51,511 bases of DNA. Source: Bdellovibrionia bacterium (GTDB lineage: Bacteria; Bdellovibrionota; Bdellovibrionia; Bdellovibrionales; JAGQZY01). The position numbers and the translations under genes are program-made. Positions 15,649 to 26,532 of this stretch are shown here, in pieces. The stretch covers positions 1 to 51,511 of the forward strand of contig JAUHWN010000011.1 of assembly GCA_030424665.1 (NCBI GenBank). Direction: 5' to 3'. Under the pieces are notes generated by a model. It made no database searches and was not told the origin of the DNA. It worked only from the letters and a program-made list of their open reading frames with translations. Each line of letters starts with the position of its first letter. Within the stretch, counting starts at the first letter, position 1.

Positions 15649-15942
15649 CTAAAAAGTTCTTTGGTTTATCCAAAGTGATATTTTCTTCTGAGAGAGAATA
15701 ATTACCTCTCTAACAACCTCTAAAGCGTCAATTCCACAGCATGAACTTTCAAAATGAAAGCTTGATGAAATGACTTCTAAGAACCCATTGATCTCTGATT
15801 CTCCATTTAAAATTCTAAGCTTTATTATTGTTCCCATTGGTGTGGACCGCTCATGGATTTGAAGAAGTTTTTCTATATCAATGGTATCTTGATCTGAAAG
15901 TTCAAGGCCTGAAATTGAAATTGAACAATTCGAAGGCCTCAT
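15649..15942 (-). CDS. HPF/RaiA-like protein, copy 1
   Basis: 97 residues from the ATG at 15942, which follows GGAG by six bases. It aligns without gaps to the protein at 18281-18574, about 36 identities in 97. The order of predicted elements (strand ISISGLEL, helix IDIEKLLQIHERSTP, strands IIKLRIL, FLEVISSSFHFESSC, helix VVREVIILSQKKI) resembles hibernation-promoting factor/RaiA, small proteins that sit in the ribosomal decoding region and silence ribosomes. The assignment rests on pattern and neighbours, not on strong identity. It sits 55 bases downstream of an RRM gene. Confidence 0.7.
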   Translation of the reverse strand: MRPSNCSISISGLELSDQDTIDIEKLLQIHERSTPMGTIIKLRILNGESEINGFLEVISSSFHFESSCCGIDALEVVREVIILSQKKISLWINQRTF

Positions 15943-15997
15943 GTTTTTCTCCAATTAGAAATAAGGAATCAGCAAAATTCAGAGGTACTTATCTCTT

Positions 15998-16276
15998 TTA
16001 ATGTCTAGTTCGTTGATTCGACGACCTACGTTCAGCCTTCTGGATGGCTTCATTAACAATGAGGTTCCTGCCAGAGACTTTAAATCCGTCAAATTGGCTA
16101 ATGGCTGTTTCTCCTGCATTGCTATCGCTGAACTCTAAAAAGGCAAAACCGCGTGATTTACCAGTGTAGCGATCCTTAACTAAATTCAATGAATTAATGG
16201 GACCTACTTGCGTAAAAAGGTCCGATAGGTCTTCTTCTGTAGTTTCAAAACTAAGGTTTCCAATATACAATGTCAT
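15998..16276 (-). CDS. RRM-domain RNA-binding protein, copy 1
   Basis: 92 residues, essentially one RNA-recognition motif: RNP2 LYIGNL (3-8) and RNP1 RGFAFLEF (42-49), followed by a short Arg-rich tail. Bacterial proteins of this type bind single-stranded RNA and are often induced by cold. The ATG at 16276 follows AAGGAG. It heads the run RRM, HPF-like, zinc ribbon. Confidence 0.92.
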   Translation of the reverse strand: MTLYIGNLSFETTEEDLSDLFTQVGPINSLNLVKDRYTGKSRGFAFLEFSDSNAGETAISQFDGFKVSGRNLIVNEAIQKAERRSSNQRTRH

Positions 16277-17975: not shown

Positions 17976-18245
17976 CTATCTCGTAACTTTATAGAATATT
18001 GAAATCGGTGTGGTTACTGACTGGGAAACTCTAATCTCCCGATCAAACAATCTAAAACCATTACACTTCTTGATCGCATTGTCTCCATCGATCCGTTTTT
18101 CGAAGTGTGCATATCCAATACCTGCTGACATGCCATACTTATCGAGTTTGACTGCCGAACAGATGTAGCCTTTTAAGTCACTCATTAAACTAGATAGGTC
18201 ATTAGAGGTAACGGTTTTGTTTAAATTTTCAATTAAAATAATCAT
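17976..18245 (-). CDS. RRM-domain RNA-binding protein, copy 2 (divergent)
   Basis: 89 residues with a divergent RRM: RNP2-like IILIENL, RNP1-like GIGYAHFE, and the closing NGFRLFDREIRVSQS that matches the last strands of the fold. The canonical aromatic of RNP1 is partly kept (Tyr, Phe). The ATG follows TTAGGA. It lies 35 bases downstream of the second HPF-like gene, the reverse of the order in copy 1. A G/C run of eight bases and nine A/T bases lie in that gap. Confidence 0.8.
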   Translation of the reverse strand: MIILIENLNKTVTSNDLSSLMSDLKGYICSAVKLDKYGMSAGIGYAHFEKRIDGDNAIKKCNGFRLFDREIRVSQSVTTPISIFYKVTR

Positions 18246-18280
18246 TGGGATTCCTAACTTCTGAAAAAAAAAGGGGGGGG

Positions 18281-18574
18281 TCAGAATACTCGTTGTTGCA
18301 TAAACACTCTAATTTGTGCTCTTAGTAATAATATAACGTCTTTAACAACTAGAATTGGTTGTGTGCCACTGGAGTTTGCTTCAAATTTGAATGAATTTGA
18401 TTGAACAGCAAGATTACCAGTAAAACTATTCTCATGATTTGATAGGTGCAACCTTAAATTGCTACCAGATGGAGTGCATCGTTCTAGTTTTTTAAGAAGT
18501 TGATCTATTTCTAAGTAGGAGTCTTTAGGAATTTTTATTCCGGATAGAAAGATTTTGCAGTTCGTCGGTTTCAT
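18281..18574 (-). CDS. HPF/RaiA-like protein, copy 2
   Basis: 97 residues from the ATG at 18574, which follows AAAGGA; an upstream in-frame ATG at 18622 lacks this support. The chosen start makes it exactly as long as copy 1 at 15649-15942 and gap-free against it. Shared positions include the PxNC start, ISG or LSG, LLxxxER, TP, SFxFE, the VV pair and the QRxF end. Same predicted fold and the same tentative role as a ribosome-associated factor. Confidence 0.7.
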   Translation of the reverse strand: MKPTNCKIFLSGIKIPKDSYLEIDQLLKKLERCTPSGSNLRLHLSNHENSFTGNLAVQSNSFKFEANSSGTQPILVVKDVILLLRAQIRVFMQQRVF

Positions 18575-18622
18575 ATAATTATCCTTTGCTGGAGCAATGT
18601 CCTGCCACGATGATTTACTCAT

Positions 18623-19813: not shown

Positions 19814-19868
<55 letters not shown>

Positions 19869-20092
19869 AGTATAACCCGCCACGTCATATTATTTCCGAA
19901 ATCCGGAGCGAAGCAACATACTCTTATCGGCCTTTAGTCCTGGATTTTAAGTAGAGATGGCACACAGAATGCTTGGGTAAGTGTTGAAGACAAAATTAAG
20001 TCTTAATCTTTAATGGTAAATATTATAGACTGTCTGGACTAAGGGATGGCCGCGGCCCCCTTCCTAGACTTCGTATTACAATGGGACATTGA

Positions 20093-20947
20093 ATGGCATC
20101 TAGCAAATCAACATCGATAGAAAAGTATCTTAACAAATTCACATGCGAGGACACTCTTAAGTTTCTAAGGAAGCTACCTGATAACTCAATCGACCTCGCC
20201 GTAACATCTCCTCCTTACAATATTAAAAACTCCACAGGCAATGGCCTTAAAGATGGCAGAGGCGGAAAATGGTCTAATGCCCACCTGCTAGATGGCTATA
20301 CCGACCACGCAGACACAATGCCATATGACCTATATGTTGAATGGCAGAGACAATGCATCTCTGAGGTCATGAGGGTTTTAAAAGAAGATGGTGCATTCTT
20401 TTACAATCACAAGTGGCGAGTTCAAAAAGGACTTATCCAAAACCGACAAGAAATCGTTGAGGGCTTTCCTTTAAGGCAAATAATTATTTGGCAAAGGGCT
20501 GGTGGGTTTAATTTCAATCCTGGCTATTTCCTTCCCACTTATGAAGTGGTTTACATGTTCACAAACCCTAAGTTTAAACTTGCACCAAAAAAGAATGGGG
20601 TCGGAGATGTTTGGAAGTTCCCGCAAGAACTTAATAATCCTCATCCTGCACCATTTCCAGTTTCATTAGTTGAAAGAATCATAGATTCTACACATGCCAA
20701 AGTAGTTCTAGACCCTTTTATGGGATCAGGAACAACTGCTATTGCTGCCAAATTATGCGGCAGAGACTTCATAGGCGTAGATTTGTCTAAAGAATATTGC
20801 AAAATGGCTAAAGACCGAATGAAAAAGTATGAGGCCAACCCGGAGCTTGGGGATCCGTATTCTTATGAAAAAATTAAAAGAAAGCCGCCCAAGAACAAAA
20901 AGCCCATAACTGGGAAGAGCAACTCGAAGCAAATCGAGATGCTTTAG
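20093..20947 (+). CDS. DNA N4-cytosine methyltransferase (type II, beta-class order)
   Basis: 284 residues. Motif IV is TSPPYNI (38-44), the TSPPY form typical of N4-cytosine enzymes, and the SAM-binding motif I DPFMGSGTTAIAA (from 207) lies C-terminal to it, the beta-class order. The tail is basic. It uses S-adenosylmethionine to protect the host recognition site. The next gene is an MvaI/BcnI-like endonuclease; the known partners of that family are also m4C enzymes, which supports the pairing. No clear ribosome site is seen before the ATG, which may limit expression. Confidence 0.93.
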   Translation: MASSKSTSIEKYLNKFTCEDTLKFLRKLPDNSIDLAVTSPPYNIKNSTGNGLKDGRGGKWSNAHLLDGYTDHADTMPYDLYVEWQRQCISEVMRVLKEDGAFFYNHKWRVQKGLIQNRQEIVEGFPLRQIIIWQRAGGFNFNPGYFLPTYEVVYMFTNPKFKLAPKKNGVGDVWKFPQELNNPHPAPFPVSLVERIIDSTHAKVVLDPFMGSGTTAIAAKLCGRDFIGVDLSKEYCKMAKDRMKKYEANPELGDPYSYEKIKRKPPKNKKPITGKSNSKQIEML

Positions 20948-21038
20948 TACCATAGTCCAATTCTTCCCAACTCTGTTCGAGAGGAAGCTCATCCGTTTTA
21001 CAATTTAAGGTGGACATCTACACCTTGGATTTTGCGAA

Positions 21039-21839
21039 TTGGAACAGTTTTCTTTAGAATCTTTGATTGAGAAACTTAATGGCATTGTCAATAAATGGCA
21101 TCCTGGAACTCGCCCGGGCAATGATGGCAATCAAGGCAATACATTAGAAGATCTTCTTGGAGTTGAAGAAAATAATTTTTCGATACCTGACTTTGGGGTT
21201 TATGAAATAAAAACTCAGAAAGCTGAGACAGGGAGCCTGATTACTCTTTTTCACAAAGAGCCAAAGCCACCCAAGTCCGTGCCTAAACTTTTACTCGCGA
21301 TGGGTTGGAAGCATTCAGAAGCTGGCAATAAGTATCCTGAAAATGAAATGAGCTTTAGAATGACGACGCCTTCAAACACCTATACATCAAGAGGTTTTAC
21401 CGTCTCAATATATGAAGAGACAATAAACATCGAATTTGACAAAACAGAAGTTAACCTTGCTGATTCTGATCGCACCAATAACTACAATAATTTAGGAGAA
21501 TGGTTAACAGAAATCGAGAACAGAAGTCCTGTTAACTACAAGGATATTTTTCCACTATTTTATGATCGCAAAGATTTTGAATCAAAATGTATTGAAAAGT
21601 TAGATAAAACTTTATTTGTCACATGCAAAACTAGAAAGAAAAATGGCAGAAAAGAATTCTTTTTTGATGAGGCGTTCCTGCTTGAAGGATTCAATCACGA
21701 TAAGATGACTGAGCTTTTTTCTCAAGGTGCAGTTTACATAGATTTTGATGCTCGGACAGGTCATAATCATGGGACTAAAATTCGCATCAAAAAAGATCGG
21801 CTGCCTGACCTTTTCGATTTTTCGAGAGCAATTCTCTGA
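21039..21839 (+). CDS. MvaI/BcnI-family type II restriction endonuclease
   Basis: 266 residues from a TTG, 91 bases after the methyltransferase. The family signature is clear: GNTLEDLLGVEENNFSIPD, then the metal-binding active site IPDFGVYEIKTQK with Asp51, Glu56 and Lys58. MvaI and BcnI are monomeric enzymes that cut CCWGG and CCSGG, so a CCNGG-like target is likely here but not provable. The weak start compared with typical genes may help keep nuclease below methylase levels. The pair could act as an addiction module for the element. Confidence 0.88.
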   Translation: MEQFSLESLIEKLNGIVNKWHPGTRPGNDGNQGNTLEDLLGVEENNFSIPDFGVYEIKTQKAETGSLITLFHKEPKPPKSVPKLLLAMGWKHSEAGNKYPENEMSFRMTTPSNTYTSRGFTVSIYEETINIEFDKTEVNLADSDRTNNYNNLGEWLTEIENRSPVNYKDIFPLFYDRKDFESKCIEKLDKTLFVTCKTRKKNGRKEFFFDEAFLLEGFNHDKMTELFSQGAVYIDFDARTGHNHGTKIRIKKDRLPDLFDFSRAIL

Positions 21840-22108
21840 GAATCTTAATGAGCAAATTAAGATTAAATGGAAAACCCCATCAAGTCCCAGGATGCCTTCT
21901 GCTGCGTTTTTATGCTCCTCCCCTGGTGTTTGTATTCCTTGGAGATGCACCTCTTAGAGCGACTCCTGTTGGCTCTCAGAGCAAGTTTTTCGATATTTGG
22001 GCTCCCATACAATTTGAATATGATTATCACACTGGATCCACCTATTTACCCTCTATGCCCCCCTCAGACTTGTGAAGGGGATGCCCCTCGCGAAAAAAGG
22101 AGGACCAG
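21840..22108. other. 269-base region with hairpins between the endonuclease and a small gene
   Basis: A perfect 9-bp inverted repeat (AATCTTAAT, loop GAGCAA, ATTAAGATT; 21841-21864) follows the endonuclease stop without a T tract, and a short GGGG-ATG-CCCC hairpin lies near 22078-22088. Base use is more C-rich than in the flanking genes. Several overlapping frames are open but none has convincing coding character. Confidence 0.5.
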
Positions 22109-22285
22109 ATGAAAGGTAAAAATAATAACAAAAAGCAATCTAGCCCAATACGCTACGATTCTATTCAAATCTCTAACTCTCTTGAATACTTACTCCTCAG
22201 AATTGGCCAGAATGTCATTATTGTAAAGCTGAGTGAGATTGACAATTTGAGAGAGTCGAAATCCCAAACACAAGAGGCAGGTTAA
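22109..22285 (+). CDS. 58-residue small protein of the element
   Basis: ATG at 22109 five bases after a perfect AGGAGG. The product starts MKGKNNNKKQSSPIRYDSIQ and continues with a strand-rich stretch (LEYLLLRIGQNVIIVKLSEI). Basic start, acidic end, no membrane helix. A strong terminator follows the stop by six bases. It may be a regulator; no family was recognised. Confidence 0.65.
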   Translation: MKGKNNNKKQSSPIRYDSIQISNSLEYLLLRIGQNVIIVKLSEIDNLRESKSQTQEAG

Positions 22286-22291
22286 TCTTCA

Positions 22292-22317
22292 GGGGCTCTG
22301 TATTAGAGCCCCTTTTT
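22292..22317 (+). terminator. Rho-independent terminator
   Basis: GGGGCTCT, loop GTATT, AGAGCCCC, then TTTTT. It ends the plus-strand transcript of the small gene and encloses the stop codon of the convergent Rep gene. Confidence 0.9.
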
Positions 22318-23094
22318 GATTATTCTATTTAAAAATGATTTGTAGTCCTTGCCCGTTTTTTTGTTAATCAATTTCTTCTTATTAAAAAAGTCATTTAGTA
22401 TCTGTTGAATAAATTCTTCTTCGTTCAAATGGTCTACCAAATCCTTGCCGGAATACTTTCTCAAAGTAGAGCGAAGTAATCTGACCTCAAACCTATAGAA
22501 CGTTTTTCTCTTTCTGATTCTGTAAAGAGGTTCGTTGTTATAAAATTCAATTCTTTTTTTTGATTTTCTAAGCTCAGCCAACTTATTGTAAAAAACTATA
22601 TCGTAGATCCGAGGATGAGTTATATATCTTGATTCTATATCTCCTCCAAGCTTCCCATAGGTTTTCTCCCATACTTCTTCACTTTTATCTACGATAGAAA
22701 AATTGTGAAAGTAAGAATTGACGTTCTTAACATCAAGAAAGTCTATGGCTATATCAATACGACTCATTCGAACCTCTCCAAATTCTTTTTTTAAGTATTT
22801 AAAAAGAGGTTTTAGCTTTTTGATATAGGCGTCCTTCTGGTCAAAAAATCTTCCGTGGCAAGTAATCATAGTCGATCTTGCATCGTGAGAAACAAACAGT
22901 TTGTCTCCATAATCGCACCACTTATTATTAAATCGTTTCGCGGTATAAAATTCGTACCCTATACCATTCAATAATTTCTCATACCTATCGTAATGGTTCT
23001 TCTCCATTAGTAATGGCTTGACCCAAGGAACTGTAAAAGTAATTCCATCTAGTCTGATTAAAACTCTAGGCTTTAAAGGTCTTCCAGGCTTCAT
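22303..23094 (-). CDS. Rep_trans-family rolling-circle initiator or relaxase (RstA/NicK/MobT-like)
   Basis: 263 residues from the ATG at 23094, which has GGAGGT four bases upstream and overlaps the ATPase stop as ATGA. Family landmarks appear in order: a small-domain strand TMITCHGRFF, the RMSRIDIAIDF motif (compare RIDLAVD), then RIYDIVFYNKLAELRKSKK and FYRFEVRLLRSTLRKY, corresponding to the Y-K and R-E motifs of RstA, NicK and RepC-like proteins. Such proteins nick an origin and start rolling-circle replication or conjugative transfer through a tyrosine-DNA link. Coupling to an FtsK-like ATPase fits either use. Confidence 0.78.
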   Translation of the reverse strand: MKPGRPLKPRVLIRLDGITFTVPWVKPLLMEKNHYDRYEKLLNGIGYEFYTAKRFNNKWCDYGDKLFVSHDARSTMITCHGRFFDQKDAYIKKLKPLFKYLKKEFGEVRMSRIDIAIDFLDVKNVNSYFHNFSIVDKSEEVWEKTYGKLGGDIESRYITHPRIYDIVFYNKLAELRKSKKRIEFYNNEPLYRIRKRKTFYRFEVRLLRSTLRKYSGKDLVDHLNEEEFIQQILNDFFNKKKLINKKTGKDYKSFLNRIIKKGL

Positions 23095-23768
23095 TTTGAC
23101 CTCCACTTCTTAACAATCAGATAGCCTGAGTGTGGTGCATCACCAATTACTCCACCGTCTATTTCATAGTAGAACCTCCCGAGCTTTAGTTTTCTCTCGT
23201 TTGTCAGAGATGTTGCTGATCCAGTTGCCGATTTGCTTTGGAATTCAGTGGCTCGATTCATGATTTTAACTTTAAAGAGTGAGCTCCTTAGGTAGGTAAA
23301 CTCGCTCAAATTCGGTTCATTTGTCAGGAAAATAAGACATTTCCGGTACTCTCGACCTAACCTAGAAAGCTCATCCAAAACTTTGCTAATTTCCTCGTAA
23401 AGAGGTGAATCAGTCTTTCTATATTTTAGTAGCGAATATGCCTCGTCTATAATTATCCAACGCTGGGTCTTATTACCTTCTCTGCATTCGTCCAGGATAG
23501 ACTGTAGTTCTGATAGAATTTCAGGTAAAACTGTATCGTCTTTAAATATTATTCTATTGAATTCCGGATGGCCCCAGTCAGTATCAGTTTTGCGATCAAT
23601 TATTAGAACCTTGAATGGGGCCAAATTCGCGATAATCGTTTTAGCTAAATGTGTTTTGCCAGTACCAGGGCGACCGGTGATAATTATTGTGTTTGATTCT
23701 TTTGAATCGATGACTATTTCATCATCACCATACGTGTTTCCTATACTATAGTAAGTTAACTTTTTTTT
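23091..23768 (-). CDS. FtsK/HerA-type ATPase domain, apparently expressed by -1 frameshift from the upstream gene
   Basis: The frame opens right after a TGA at 23769-23771 and encodes about 225 residues. Walker A (TGRPGTGKTHLAKT) precedes the first possible start codon (TTG at 23624), so no normal start can make the whole domain. The frame is -1 relative to the upstream membrane gene, and both meet at nine A residues (23761-23769 on the plus strand as T). A shift there gives one protein of about 345 residues with an N-terminal membrane helix. Other motifs: VLIIDRKTD, Walker B RWIIIDEA, and LSRLGREYRKCLIFLTNEP, which matches the FtsK pattern LARKGRxxGIHLxxATQRP. A sequencing error in the A run is the main alternative. 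Confidence 0.75.
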   Translation of the reverse strand, partial: KKKLTYYSIGNTYGDDEIVIDSKESNTIIITGRPGTGKTHLAKTIIANLAPFKVLIIDRKTDTDWGHPEFNRIIFKDDTVLPEILSELQSILDECREGNKTQRWIIIDEAYSLLKYRKTDSPLYEEISKVLDELSRLGREYRKCLIFLTNEPNLSEFTYLRSSLFKVKIMNRATEFQSKSATGSATSLTNERKLKLGRFYYEIDGGVIGDAPHSGYLIVKKWRSK

Positions 23769-24127
23769 TCAAGATACAACACTAATTTCTTTCTATCTTT
23801 AGTATGCTTATACAGGCCTTTCCCGTAAATATTCTCAACAACATGGTATTTTGCTCTTATATCTTTATCGCTCAAATTAACCGGATACCGATAGATGATT
23901 ATTTTAGAAAACAGTATCCTTACAGTAATATCAAACACCTTGCTCTTGCTGGAAGCCAATCCTCCTTCAATAAGTTGTTCAAATCTCTCATCAGCGTTTG
24001 CAATAACTACTTTGAGCCAGACGATCATTATTAAAACGAATACACCAAGTAAAATCCATGCCTTGGTTTCCGTTGGTAAAGCTGTGAAGTAGTCGAACAA
24101 TTGATTTAGTACTTTTTTTAAATTCAT
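23756..24127 (-). CDS. Membrane-anchored N-terminal partner of the ATPase
   Basis: 123 residues in its own frame from the ATG at 24127, preceded by AAGGAGGAG. One transmembrane helix (AWILLGVFVLIMIVWLKVV), then a soluble part rich in basic residues (IIIYRYPVNLSDKDIRAKYH). It stops (TAA) just after the nine-A run; a -1 shift adds the ATPase domain. An N-terminal membrane anchor followed by an FtsK-type motor is the layout of conjugative coupling proteins such as TcpA-type ATPases. Confidence 0.8.
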   Translation of the reverse strand: MNLKKVLNQLFDYFTALPTETKAWILLGVFVLIMIVWLKVVIANADERFEQLIEGGLASSKSKVFDITVRILFSKIIIYRYPVNLSDKDIRAKYHVVENIYGKGLYKHTKDRKKLVLYLEKKS

Positions 24128-24140
24128 TTTCTCCTCCTTA

Positions 24141-24164
24141 AGAAAAAGAGGGAGCATTGCTCCC
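24141..24164 (-). terminator. Rho-independent terminator between the small gene and the membrane-ATPase genes
   Basis: On the minus strand GGGAGC, loop AAT, GCTCCC, then TCTTTTTC. It would reduce read-through from the strong upstream gene into the membrane-ATPase-Rep genes. Confidence 0.85.
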
Positions 24165-24171
24165 CCCTGGG

Positions 24172-24438
24172 TTATTTCTTTACCTTAATTTCCGATAGTC
24201 CAAACCGAAATTCAGGTCCATATTGATTATTCATTAGTCTAATATCCGCATGATAGACCTCAGACTCCTTTATGTATTTTAAAGTGTCCGGCTCTCTCAT
24301 GAAGACAGTTAATGGCTTCGGTTCATCACTCCTTTCAAGCCACTTAAATGTTACGACTAGGTACTCTGTCTCTTTATGTGTTGTTCTCCCCACATCTAAG
24401 ACTTTTATTGATTGTTTTGTGAAAATAAAATTTCTCAT
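24172..24438 (-). CDS. Small protein, possible single-strand DNA-binding protein
   Basis: 88 residues, ATG at 24438 behind AAGGAGG. The sequence is beta-rich (IKVLDVGR, TEYLVVTFKWLER, PLTVFMREP, HADIRLMNNQ, FRFGLSEIKVKK) without membrane helices. Position as the first, strongly started gene of the replication operon, followed by a terminator, is like that of phage or plasmid single-strand DNA-binding genes. The functional call is inference. Confidence 0.65.
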   Translation of the reverse strand: MRNFIFTKQSIKVLDVGRTTHKETEYLVVTFKWLERSDEPKPLTVFMREPDTLKYIKESEVYHADIRLMNNQYGPEFRFGLSEIKVKK

Positions 24439-24546
24439 TTTTTCCTCCTTGAGTTTTATTTCTTTTTTGATGGCCTCATGCCACCTCAGAGATAAATGGA
24501 AAAAATCAAAGCCAATTTCACATTTTTTTTAGTTTATTTATATTTT

Positions 24547-24690
24547 TGTGCCCTATTAGATACGGGCACATGGGCATATTGAGGAAAATGTGTGGCTCGG
24601 CGTTTGGATCGCCGAGCCACCTTGCCATAAACACTAAGCCTCCCATTTGGAAACTTGCCCACTATTTGTGAAGCAACTTTCAATGGGAGG
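24547..24690. promoter_or_regulatory. Hairpin cluster between divergent genes: candidate origin and promoter region
   Basis: Three inverted repeats in 144 bases: TGTGCCC and GGGCACA (24547-24570); a perfect 11-bp stem GTGGCTCGGCG and CGCCGAGCCAC with a 7-base loop (24592-24620); and CCTCCCATT with AATGGGAGG (24639-24690), whose right arm is also the ribosome site of the next gene. Rolling-circle origins and phage packaging signals have such stems. Confidence 0.55.
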
Positions 24691-24741
24691 TAAGATGTTC
24701 TTTCTAATGTTGCACTTTGGATCTTTTCAGTTCTTTTTTAT

Positions 24742-25176
24742 TTGGTCGGCATAGTCCCCTGGATAAACTCACCATCAGACTCAACAGCCCTATATATTTT
24801 ATCCGTAATTACCTTTATATTTGTGTGTAGGGCGTCGTTTCGGCTCTCTAAAGAAATAAAAAGCTTTAAACAAATTAAAATGGTCCATAGCACCAGAGGC
24901 GAACGTCAATTAAAACAGGTCGTTAAAAAGCCTACAAACAAACGAGACGATTACAGAGAAACTACGGGTTACGAAATGCTTTATAGAGAAGCCTATGTTG
25001 CAGGATACACTAAGGCCACCAATAAGTTACGAAAATACAGAGATGAGTTAGCTAGAAAAGAAAAGTCCTTATACCAAAGCGTTGATGAATACGCTGATAA
25101 AGTCGCCAGACAAAAGCGGGCTGAGATTGAATTTGAATTTGAATTTTTGAATGACAACAAAAAAGCATCTAATTAA
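24742..25176 (+). CDS. Membrane protein with coiled C-terminus; start frame uncertain
   Basis: 144 residues counted from a TTG at 24742 that has no ribosome site. The frame is open from 24694 and the extra part is hydrophobic (VALWIFSVLFYLVGIVPW), so the real product probably has two membrane segments, the second being ALYILSVITFIFVCRASF. An ATG at 24695 with a strong GGGAGG site lies in the +1 frame, encodes MFFLMLHFGSFQFFFIWSA and stops at 24754; a -1 shift in TTCTTTTTTA would join it to this frame. The C-terminal part is charged and probably coiled (NKLRKYRDELARKEKSLYQ). It ends eight bases inside the convergent integrase gene. Confidence 0.65.
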   Translation: MVGIVPWINSPSDSTALYILSVITFIFVCRASFRLSKEIKSFKQIKMVHSTRGERQLKQVVKKPTNKRDDYRETTGYEMLYREAYVAGYTKATNKLRKYRDELARKEKSLYQSVDEYADKVARQKRAEIEFEFEFLNDNKKASN

Positions 25177-26215
25177 CAAACTTCTTTAGGGTATTAATTC
25201 CAAGATGTGTAAGCTGATATCCCGAATAATAGGCTTCACATGTCGCAGCGGAATTTCCTAACGACTGGGCGACCAATTCAATGGGAGCTCCCTGAGAGAC
25301 TAGATACACAGCAGTGCTGTGCCTTAGCCCATGGGTTGATATACTCTCGCCCACATATTTCCTGCTCAACCTCCTAATAAGATGACTCAAATTATTTTGT
25401 TTAACAGGAAGTTTTTTGTTCGATTCAGCCCAAGCTTTTACATATTTATACCCGCCTGGTATGATGAAGGCTGTTCGCTCTAGTTTAGTCTTGGTTTCAT
25501 CTATCGATCCATCTCTCTTTTTTTGTTTTTTAACCAACACGATATCTTTTTCTACAAATTTTGGAGGCAAGTACATTAATTCTCCAGTTCTCATGCCGGT
25601 ATAAAAAGCTGCAAGAATAAACAACTTTAAGTTCTGATCATCAACAGCTTCAGCTAGTTCATGTACTTGGTCTTTGGTCAAAAATTCTATTTCCTTTTTA
25701 CTCTTGGCACTCTCCACCCAAAGCTCAACATCTGTCCTTTCTAGGAATTTTAGTATCGCCCGCAATGCCGTTCCAATTTTATTATGATTGGGGCCAGAGT
25801 ATTTCTTATCTAGCTTCTCTTGAATCTGCTCTTCCGTTGCTGTTGTAATATTGACTTCCTCAAGAGCCTCAATAGCTCTCCTAAATTTTGCATATGAGGC
25901 ATCTGGGTCTTTCATCCTGCGATTTTTAGGCTTCTTACGGTAGCTATTCCAAAACTTCTTCAAAACAGCCAGGTTATCAGTATTACCAGGGGGTAAGTTT
26001 TCACCTCTTCTGGTGTAAATACTTTCCCTGACTTTCTTGAGTCGCTCTCTCGCAACAACCTCAGAGATCTCATCTTCCAGAAATAATCTGTTGATTGCGT
26101 CGATTCGCTTGTCTTTGATTGTAGTGTTGGATGTTTTTCCGTCTTTCTTCTGTTGGTCAATTAGACGGAACTTTTCATTTTTTTTACTGATGAGTATGTA
26201 ACTTTTCTTTTTCAT
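25169..26215 (-). CDS. Tyrosine recombinase (integrase)
   Basis: 348 residues. N-terminal arm and core-binding helices are followed by the catalytic domain: Arg209 (YTGMRTGELMYLP), His295 and Arg298 (HGLRHSTAVYLVSQG) and the nucleophile Tyr330 (EAYYSGY). The usual second His is Asn321 (SLGNSAATCE), a change seen in some integrases. It lies beside the intact tRNA-Asp and should catalyse recombination between the 55-bp repeats and the circular form. Its 5' end overlaps the upstream small gene by 32 bases. Confidence 0.95.
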   Translation of the reverse strand: MKKKSYILISKKNEKFRLIDQQKKDGKTSNTTIKDKRIDAINRLFLEDEISEVVARERLKKVRESIYTRRGENLPPGNTDNLAVLKKFWNSYRKKPKNRRMKDPDASYAKFRRAIEALEEVNITTATEEQIQEKLDKKYSGPNHNKIGTALRAILKFLERTDVELWVESAKSKKEIEFLTKDQVHELAEAVDDQNLKLFILAAFYTGMRTGELMYLPPKFVEKDIVLVKKQKKRDGSIDETKTKLERTAFIIPGGYKYVKAWAESNKKLPVKQNNLSHLIRRLSRKYVGESISTHGLRHSTAVYLVSQGAPIELVAQSLGNSAATCEAYYSGYQLTHLGINTLKKFVN

Positions 26216-26393
26216 AATTCGATGCTACCTGTTTTAACTTAGCCACTTGGGCTAATGCTTGGCTTAGCTTTATATGTTTCCCACATGAAGCAGCCAAGCC
26301 TCTAATAACAGACGCATCGGAAAGAAAGGTATAATTTATAACCCGACCTTGTTCCGTTTTTATAACCCGCGATTTTCTATCATTTTTGGTCAT
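26184..26393 (-). CDS. Small basic protein upstream of the integrase (possible excision or control factor)
   Basis: 69 residues, ATG at 26393 with AAAGGA upstream. Basic start, then a helical part (ASVIRGLAASCGKHIKLSQA, LAQVAKLKQVASNYEKEKL). The 32-base overlap with the integrase implies coupled translation. Excisionases are often found in this place and size, but no winged-helix signature can be claimed. Confidence 0.6.
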   Translation of the reverse strand: MTKNDRKSRVIKTEQGRVINYTFLSDASVIRGLAASCGKHIKLSQALAQVAKLKQVASNYEKEKLHTHQ

Positions 26394-26452
26394 AAAAACG
26401 TGGTCCTTTTTTTGGAGTGTTTTTGATTACTTACGGACTATCATATCAAGCA

Positions 26453-26532
<80 letters not shown>

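Follow-up and report, generated by a model that had tools for sequence, protein, structure and literature searches.

A TcpA-like coupling protein gene divided between two frames at a run of nine As, in a small element integrated at tRNA-Asp of a Bdellovibrio relative

The window (i.e., the whole stretch of 51,511 nucleotides that was analysed, from a bacterium of the order Bdellovibrionales) carries an integrated element at a tRNA-Asp gene, whose features are collected in Table 1. A tyrosine integrase is present and a 55-bp direct repeat flanks the element at both ends, which is the arrangement expected of an integrative mobilizable element (IME) at a specific site; the homology to a genome of the same genus (87–93%) ends at 26452, i.e., at the repeat. 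Two cargo genes, for a DNA methyltransferase and a restriction endonuclease, are followed on the opposite strand by a three-gene unit made of a small gene, an anchor and ATPase that are encoded in two frames, and a gene resembling replication initiators and relaxases. The resemblance of this last gene to Rep_trans is sub-threshold, and when the genome was searched for Rep_trans it was the only match (E 0.17); the profile of the Rep-like proteins matched nothing in the PDB. It aligns with the third gene of the related units described below, one of which, in the single-contig genome L012, matches a replication-initiation PHROG (2.7e-4). The probable start of the window's copy is the ATG at 23094, within an ATGA overlap with the stop of the ATPase, and an in-frame GTG is also found at 23106. 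In streptococcal mobilizable elements, the layout comprises an integrase, a TcpA-type coupling protein and an initiator-type relaxase (PMC5357655). Because an integrase, a TcpA-like coupling protein and an initiator-like gene are likewise gathered here, the element is probably a small IME, whose mobilisation itself we infer. Outside the element, at 15649–16276 and 17976–18622, two look-alike gene pairs were recognised by eye in the translations, a 101- or 113-aa gene of one family adjoining an 89- or 92-aa gene that is RNA-recognition-motif-like.

Table 1. Features of the integrated element, in window coordinates.
Feature	Position	Strand	Basis or remark
Whole integrated element	19814-26507	.	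about 6.64 kb, between tRNA-Asp repeats
Far end of the element: tRNA-Asp 3'-end repeat, second copy	19814..19868	.	55-bp repeat
Type II DNA methyltransferase (cargo)	20093..20947	+	N6_N4_Mtase E 2.6e-41; PADLOC MTase_II
MvaI/BcnI-family restriction endonuclease (cargo)	21039..21839	+	PF15515 E 1.3e-41
Replication-initiator/relaxase-like gene	22303..23106	-	Rep_trans E 0.013, sub-threshold
ATPase frame, FtsK/TcpA-like P-loop motor, 225 codons	23091..23768	-	profile, fold, relatives
Membrane-anchor ORF, 123 aa	23756..24127	-	hydrophobic helix at residues 17-47, then small domain
A9 run, sense strand, where the membrane frame meets the ATPase frame	23761..23769	-	direct sequence reading
First gene of the three-gene unit (small, 88 aa)	24172..24438	-	position shared with the relatives' 94-99 aa genes
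Tyrosine integrase	25169..26215	-	Phage_integrase E 2.7e-13
Intact tRNA-Asp gene, with one repeat copy (26453-26507)	26453..26532	-	repeat comparison

The membrane ORF ends in CTT GAA AAA AAA AGT TAA, with the TAA at 23758–23756, and the A run, read directly, holds exactly nine residues (23769–23761). The ATPase frame lies −1 relative to this ORF, reads TGA AAA AAA AAG TTA ACT TAC and onwards, and stays open for 225 codons up to a TGA at 23093–23091, a length that would arise by chance at this composition with a probability of about 7e-8. The preliminary description had already given this end of the membrane gene and the −1 position of the ATPase frame, and direct reading agrees with both. Its opening of the ATPase frame, put at 12 bases, needs a small correction: the frame does adjoin the run, but it opens at the A run itself, which its opening TGA touches. 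The absence of ATG, GTG and TTG from this frame 5' of Walker A (GRPGTGKT, residues 32–39 of the frame), also claimed there, was confirmed and extends to CTG; just ATA, ATC and ATT codons occur in this part, and the earliest ATG, GTG or TTG is the TTG of codon 49. The membrane and ATPase frames overlap solely at the A9 run and, as the −1 frame begins there, they could be joined nowhere else. The predicted joint is LEKKKLTYYSIG, and anchor plus ATPase would then make 345 residues. Frames that overlap at a slippery run, followed by a start-less downstream frame, are what is looked for in slippage-dependent genes, and both are found here; the 15-mer spanning the run has a single occurrence in the genome. 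The two frames could also be two separate genes, the ATPase starting at a rare codon (ATA, ATC or ATT, all in frame ahead of Walker A) or by re-initiation after the TAA, given that the membrane frame stops almost where the ATPase frame opens. But the ATPase frame holds no NUG codon near the membrane stop and each relative found is fused, and we consider this arrangement highly improbable.

The anchor ORF has two in-frame ATG codons, at 24127 and 24157, and the former is favoured as the start because of the Shine-Dalgarno sequence ahead of it, AAGGAGGAGAAA. A hydrophobic stretch, i.e., the N-terminal transmembrane anchor expected of TcpA coupling proteins, is present in the window's ORF and in all the relatives tested, and the small domain that comes after the helix precedes the ATPase in the relatives too. 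The FtsK-type motor fold of these coupling proteins was recovered both by profile and by fold search. The best PDB match of the profile (E 8.5e-7) is 6o1w, a DNA translocase coupling protein, identified in the fold search as TcpA of pCW3. The fold search was run with the model of a relative, built from an alignment (mean pLDDT 58, core 80–94), and it placed TcpA on top (E 5.4e-12), then the FtsK and EssC/EccC motors. The protein of L012 matches an FtsK/SpoIIIE-like PHROG, a phage family (2.5e-14). The Pfam model FtsK_SpoIIIE (PF01580) stays below its cut-off, with 20 bits against 24 for the window's ATPase and 15.2 for the relative P0004, which is why we call the protein TcpA-like and not TcpA. 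On these profile and fold matches, the protein of the window and its relatives appears most like a TcpA-like, FtsK-type conjugation coupling protein. No Pfam family fits the ATPase half (23094–23768) as well as the PADLOC model mad8 does (E 4e-14). The relatives match mad8 weakly, alongside HerA, and no other MADS protein occurs among those scanned; hence we set this identity aside and take the match as superfamily-level similarity.

Four relatives of the ATPase were found (BroJett040, L005/L021; UBA2316, twice, L006/L022 and L009/L023; and L012), their source genomes being two Bdellovibrionales metagenome-assembled genomes (MAGs) and the single-contig genome of the same order. In all four, a single continuous ORF of 355–369 aa encodes the N-terminal hydrophobic helix, the middle domain and the ATPase. 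The gene order is also common to the window and the four relatives: a 94–99 aa gene in the latter, the fusion, and a Rep-like gene of 307–372 aa, the ATPase and Rep genes overlapping by four bases in the three MAG copies as in the window. The window's two halves align end to end with the relatives. For the ATPase half, none of 1000 shuffles was as good against each relative tested. For the anchor, the soluble part matches the relatives' profile weakly but significantly (5/3000 shuffles as good), and the whole 123-residue ORF was equalled by 61 of 3000 shuffles. Pairwise, the match of the anchor's N-terminus is clear with L012 (0/1000) and not clear with L005 and L009, where 10% and 7% of the shuffles did as well; the position, helix and length of the anchor agree in all the relatives. 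Since a single frame encodes the fusion in four relatives that share the gene order, and since the two frames overlap nowhere but at the A9 run, the comparison supports the reading of these frames as parts of one protein. The earlier proposal that membrane anchor and ATPase belong together is thereby upheld, and homologues with a normal separate start, which would have spoken against it, were sought and not found, all the relatives being continuous.

A conserved A run, the other outcome envisaged for homologues in the preliminary description, was not observed: no run longer than A6 occurs anywhere in the genes of these four distant relatives, whose frame is continuous instead. Thus, the A9 run and the break are seen only in the window's lineage and, judged from these sequences, the ancestral design is the fused one, from which the broken gene of the window departs. 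A slippery site could also have been recruited recently in this lineage. Closer relatives were searched for in viral contigs (with the ATPase, a relative's protein, the fused profile, the Rep protein and the membrane ORF as queries), in genome contigs by profile, in phage and plasmid records by protein search, and among the whole genomes of the phylum; none was found, and all searches together gave only the four distant, continuous relatives. Other candidates were set aside, either as weak or short P-loop matches (L003, L007, L020, L024 and L025) or as secretion-type or HerA-like ATPases in other gene contexts (L014–L017). In L021, L022 and L023, the same three-gene unit travels with other cargo (small membrane proteins or a gene that is alpha/beta-hydrolase-like), and the Rep-like gene is followed by a convergent membrane gene of 88 aa that is conserved. 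Integrase-like genes, recognised by eye, are found near the MAG relatives, one of them beside a tRNA-Met.

Continuous homologues allow equally well a recent indel and an error in the window. The latter would be a base-call or assembly error, the true run keeping the frame and the gene being an ordinary continuous coupling protein gene. The genome assembly is indeed fragmented (260 contigs, 91% complete, 4.43 Mb), the relatives are continuous, and a single wrong run, when genes hold about 15 sense A9 runs, would be in line with a per-run error of a few percent. We surveyed frame breaks in a 534-kb sample of the assembly, taking A/T runs of at least 6 where an ORF ends and another frame opens. 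In this sample, no A/T run of 8 or more stands at a frame break other than that of the window, and every other such break has a start codon in the downstream frame. Exact A9/T9 runs number 78 in the 4.43-Mb genome, among which the window's is the only one found at a frame break. Nineteen of the others (14 sense-A and 5 sense-T) lie inside intact ORFs of 100 aa or more, at a depth of at least 15 codons. The other A9/T9 runs examined, at ORF ends, look like ordinary gene ends, none having a long start-less open frame beyond it. This census argues against a general homopolymer fault of the assembly, and an error at this particular run, although a serious rival, seems to us unlikely.

The break could also be real and not programmed. 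In that case, a recent one-base contraction of the run would have inactivated the coupling protein, or the run would switch between lengths in the DNA itself, as phase variation, the sequenced cells being in the OFF state. Homopolymers of this length do change length through replication slippage. The remainder of the ATPase frame is undamaged, as it would be after a recent event, and the continuous relatives fit this reading too. Streptococcal mobilizable elements often lack the coupling protein or carry it as a pseudogene (PMC5357655), so that its loss can be tolerated. On the other hand, the frame is kept at the 14 other sense A9 runs located in genes, a second copy with a different run length is not known, and some polymerase slippage on the nine As would be expected even after such an indel. 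We hold a non-programmed break to be somewhat unlikely, though a serious rival as well.

The reading that we tentatively prefer is that a single gene encodes an FtsK-type DNA-transfer ATPase with a membrane anchor, and that the length of the A9 run breaks the frame of this gene. RNA polymerase would slip on this run, and perhaps the ribosome too on A_AAA_AAA, a heptamer that could itself allow slipping. Read-through into the ATPase would follow in transcripts with 10, 13 or 7 As, giving the full 345-residue protein in a minority of cases, and the remaining transcripts would give the 123-residue anchor devoid of its motor. We put the probability that slippage on the A9 run yields some fused protein at roughly 0.46, a little below even odds; that slippage occurs here, its rate and the dependence of the element on it are what we infer. 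Efficient slippage of RNA polymerase has been described in vivo on runs of nine As or Ts (PMC5009743), and Citrobacter rodentium tssM1, a gene for a membrane protein that is truncated after an A11 run, is rescued by slippage at 20–25% (PMC4256274). The A run had earlier been likened to the slippery site of dnaX. Polymerase slippage on nine As or Ts thus has its precedent, while the ribosomal part of the likeness is weak: no Shine-Dalgarno-like tetramer or longer lies within 25 nt upstream of the run, and downstream structure is unremarkable over 50–60 nt (z from 0.1 to −0.8), reaching about −2 for longer stretches only. These are stimulators of the E. coli dnaX type, which polymerase slippage does not need; hence, any protein made is more likely to arise through slippage of RNA polymerase.

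Two further observations were counted in favour of slippage. The other genes recognised in the element are intact and its flanking repeats are still identical over 55 bp, as in a young and possibly live element. Moreover, in the 534-kb sample, sense A runs of 8 or more are depleted in coding DNA, the A8/A7 ratio of sense A runs being 0.13 in genes and 0.27 between genes (small numbers), as expected if such runs are costly; this depletion would fit a cost of slippage whether at the DNA, the RNA or the ribosome. Against slippage count the lack of conservation of the run among the relatives, conservation being what usually proves such a site, the absence of stimulators for ribosomal frameshifting, and the fact that at least 14 other sense A9 runs stand in frame inside genes, so that the host does not use such runs generally for recoding. 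The 123-residue product may have no role of its own. That slippage here would be programmed, at a set ratio, is unproven, because no close relative was found in which conservation of the run could be tested. It is quite doubtful, in our view, that the coupling protein is throttled by RNA-polymerase slippage, a design in which the run would be in frame in just part of the transcripts, the motor would be kept low relative to the motor-less anchor and transfer kept rare.

If the slippage is real, a DNA-transfer motor would join the bacterial machines with subunits made by polymerase slippage; if the throttling were true as well, a conjugation-type motor of a TcpA-like lineage, in Bdellovibrio-like bacteria, would be under the control of slippage. 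Regardless of slippage, small integrase-bearing elements with a TcpA-like coupling protein are found in Bdellovibrionales, i.e., outside the Firmicutes, where TcpA has been placed (PMC5357655). Such elements would be a route for predatory bacteria and their relatives to gain genes, for instance restriction systems.

Several known systems can be compared with this locus. Like the Zot/pI ATPases of filamentous phages, the window's protein would be a membrane-bound ATPase encoded near a rolling-circle-type initiator in a small integrated element. Unlike them, its anchor is N-terminal, no Zot family appears among the Pfam and PHROG matches listed, and its nearest folds are TcpA and FtsK, so we rejected a filamentous-phage reading; among the element's ORFs searched, no coat gene was recognised in the Pfam and PHROG matches listed. 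With TcpA (pCW3, 6o1w; streptococcal IMEs, PMC5357655), it shares an N-terminal membrane anchor and one FtsK-like motor domain and, as in the streptococcal elements, its gene adjoins a replication-initiator-like gene and a tyrosine integrase. It differs from TcpA by an identity of about 15%, by its single hydrophobic stretch, and by its host, a Bdellovibrio relative, TcpA being reported in Firmicutes only (PMC5357655). As for the run, dnaX also has a run of As in its transcript and two products, by ribosomal slippage in E. coli and by transcriptional slippage in Thermus thermophilus, where it occurs on nine Ts of the gene's template (PMC5009743). In dnaX, slippage yields the short form from a continuous gene, whereas here it would be needed for the long form, and the stimulators of the E. 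coli gene were not found. The closest parallel in layout is offered by tssM1 of C. rodentium (PMC4256274), which is also a membrane-protein gene of a transport machine, with a stop soon after a poly-A run, a long form in the other frame, no ribosomal stimulators nearby and two length variants proposed. For tssM1, slippage was shown by immunoblot, GFP fusions and mass spectrometry, whereas the window's gene is known from its sequence; and the tssM1 run is longer (A11), while in the window's gene the motor would be lost entirely if no slippage took place.
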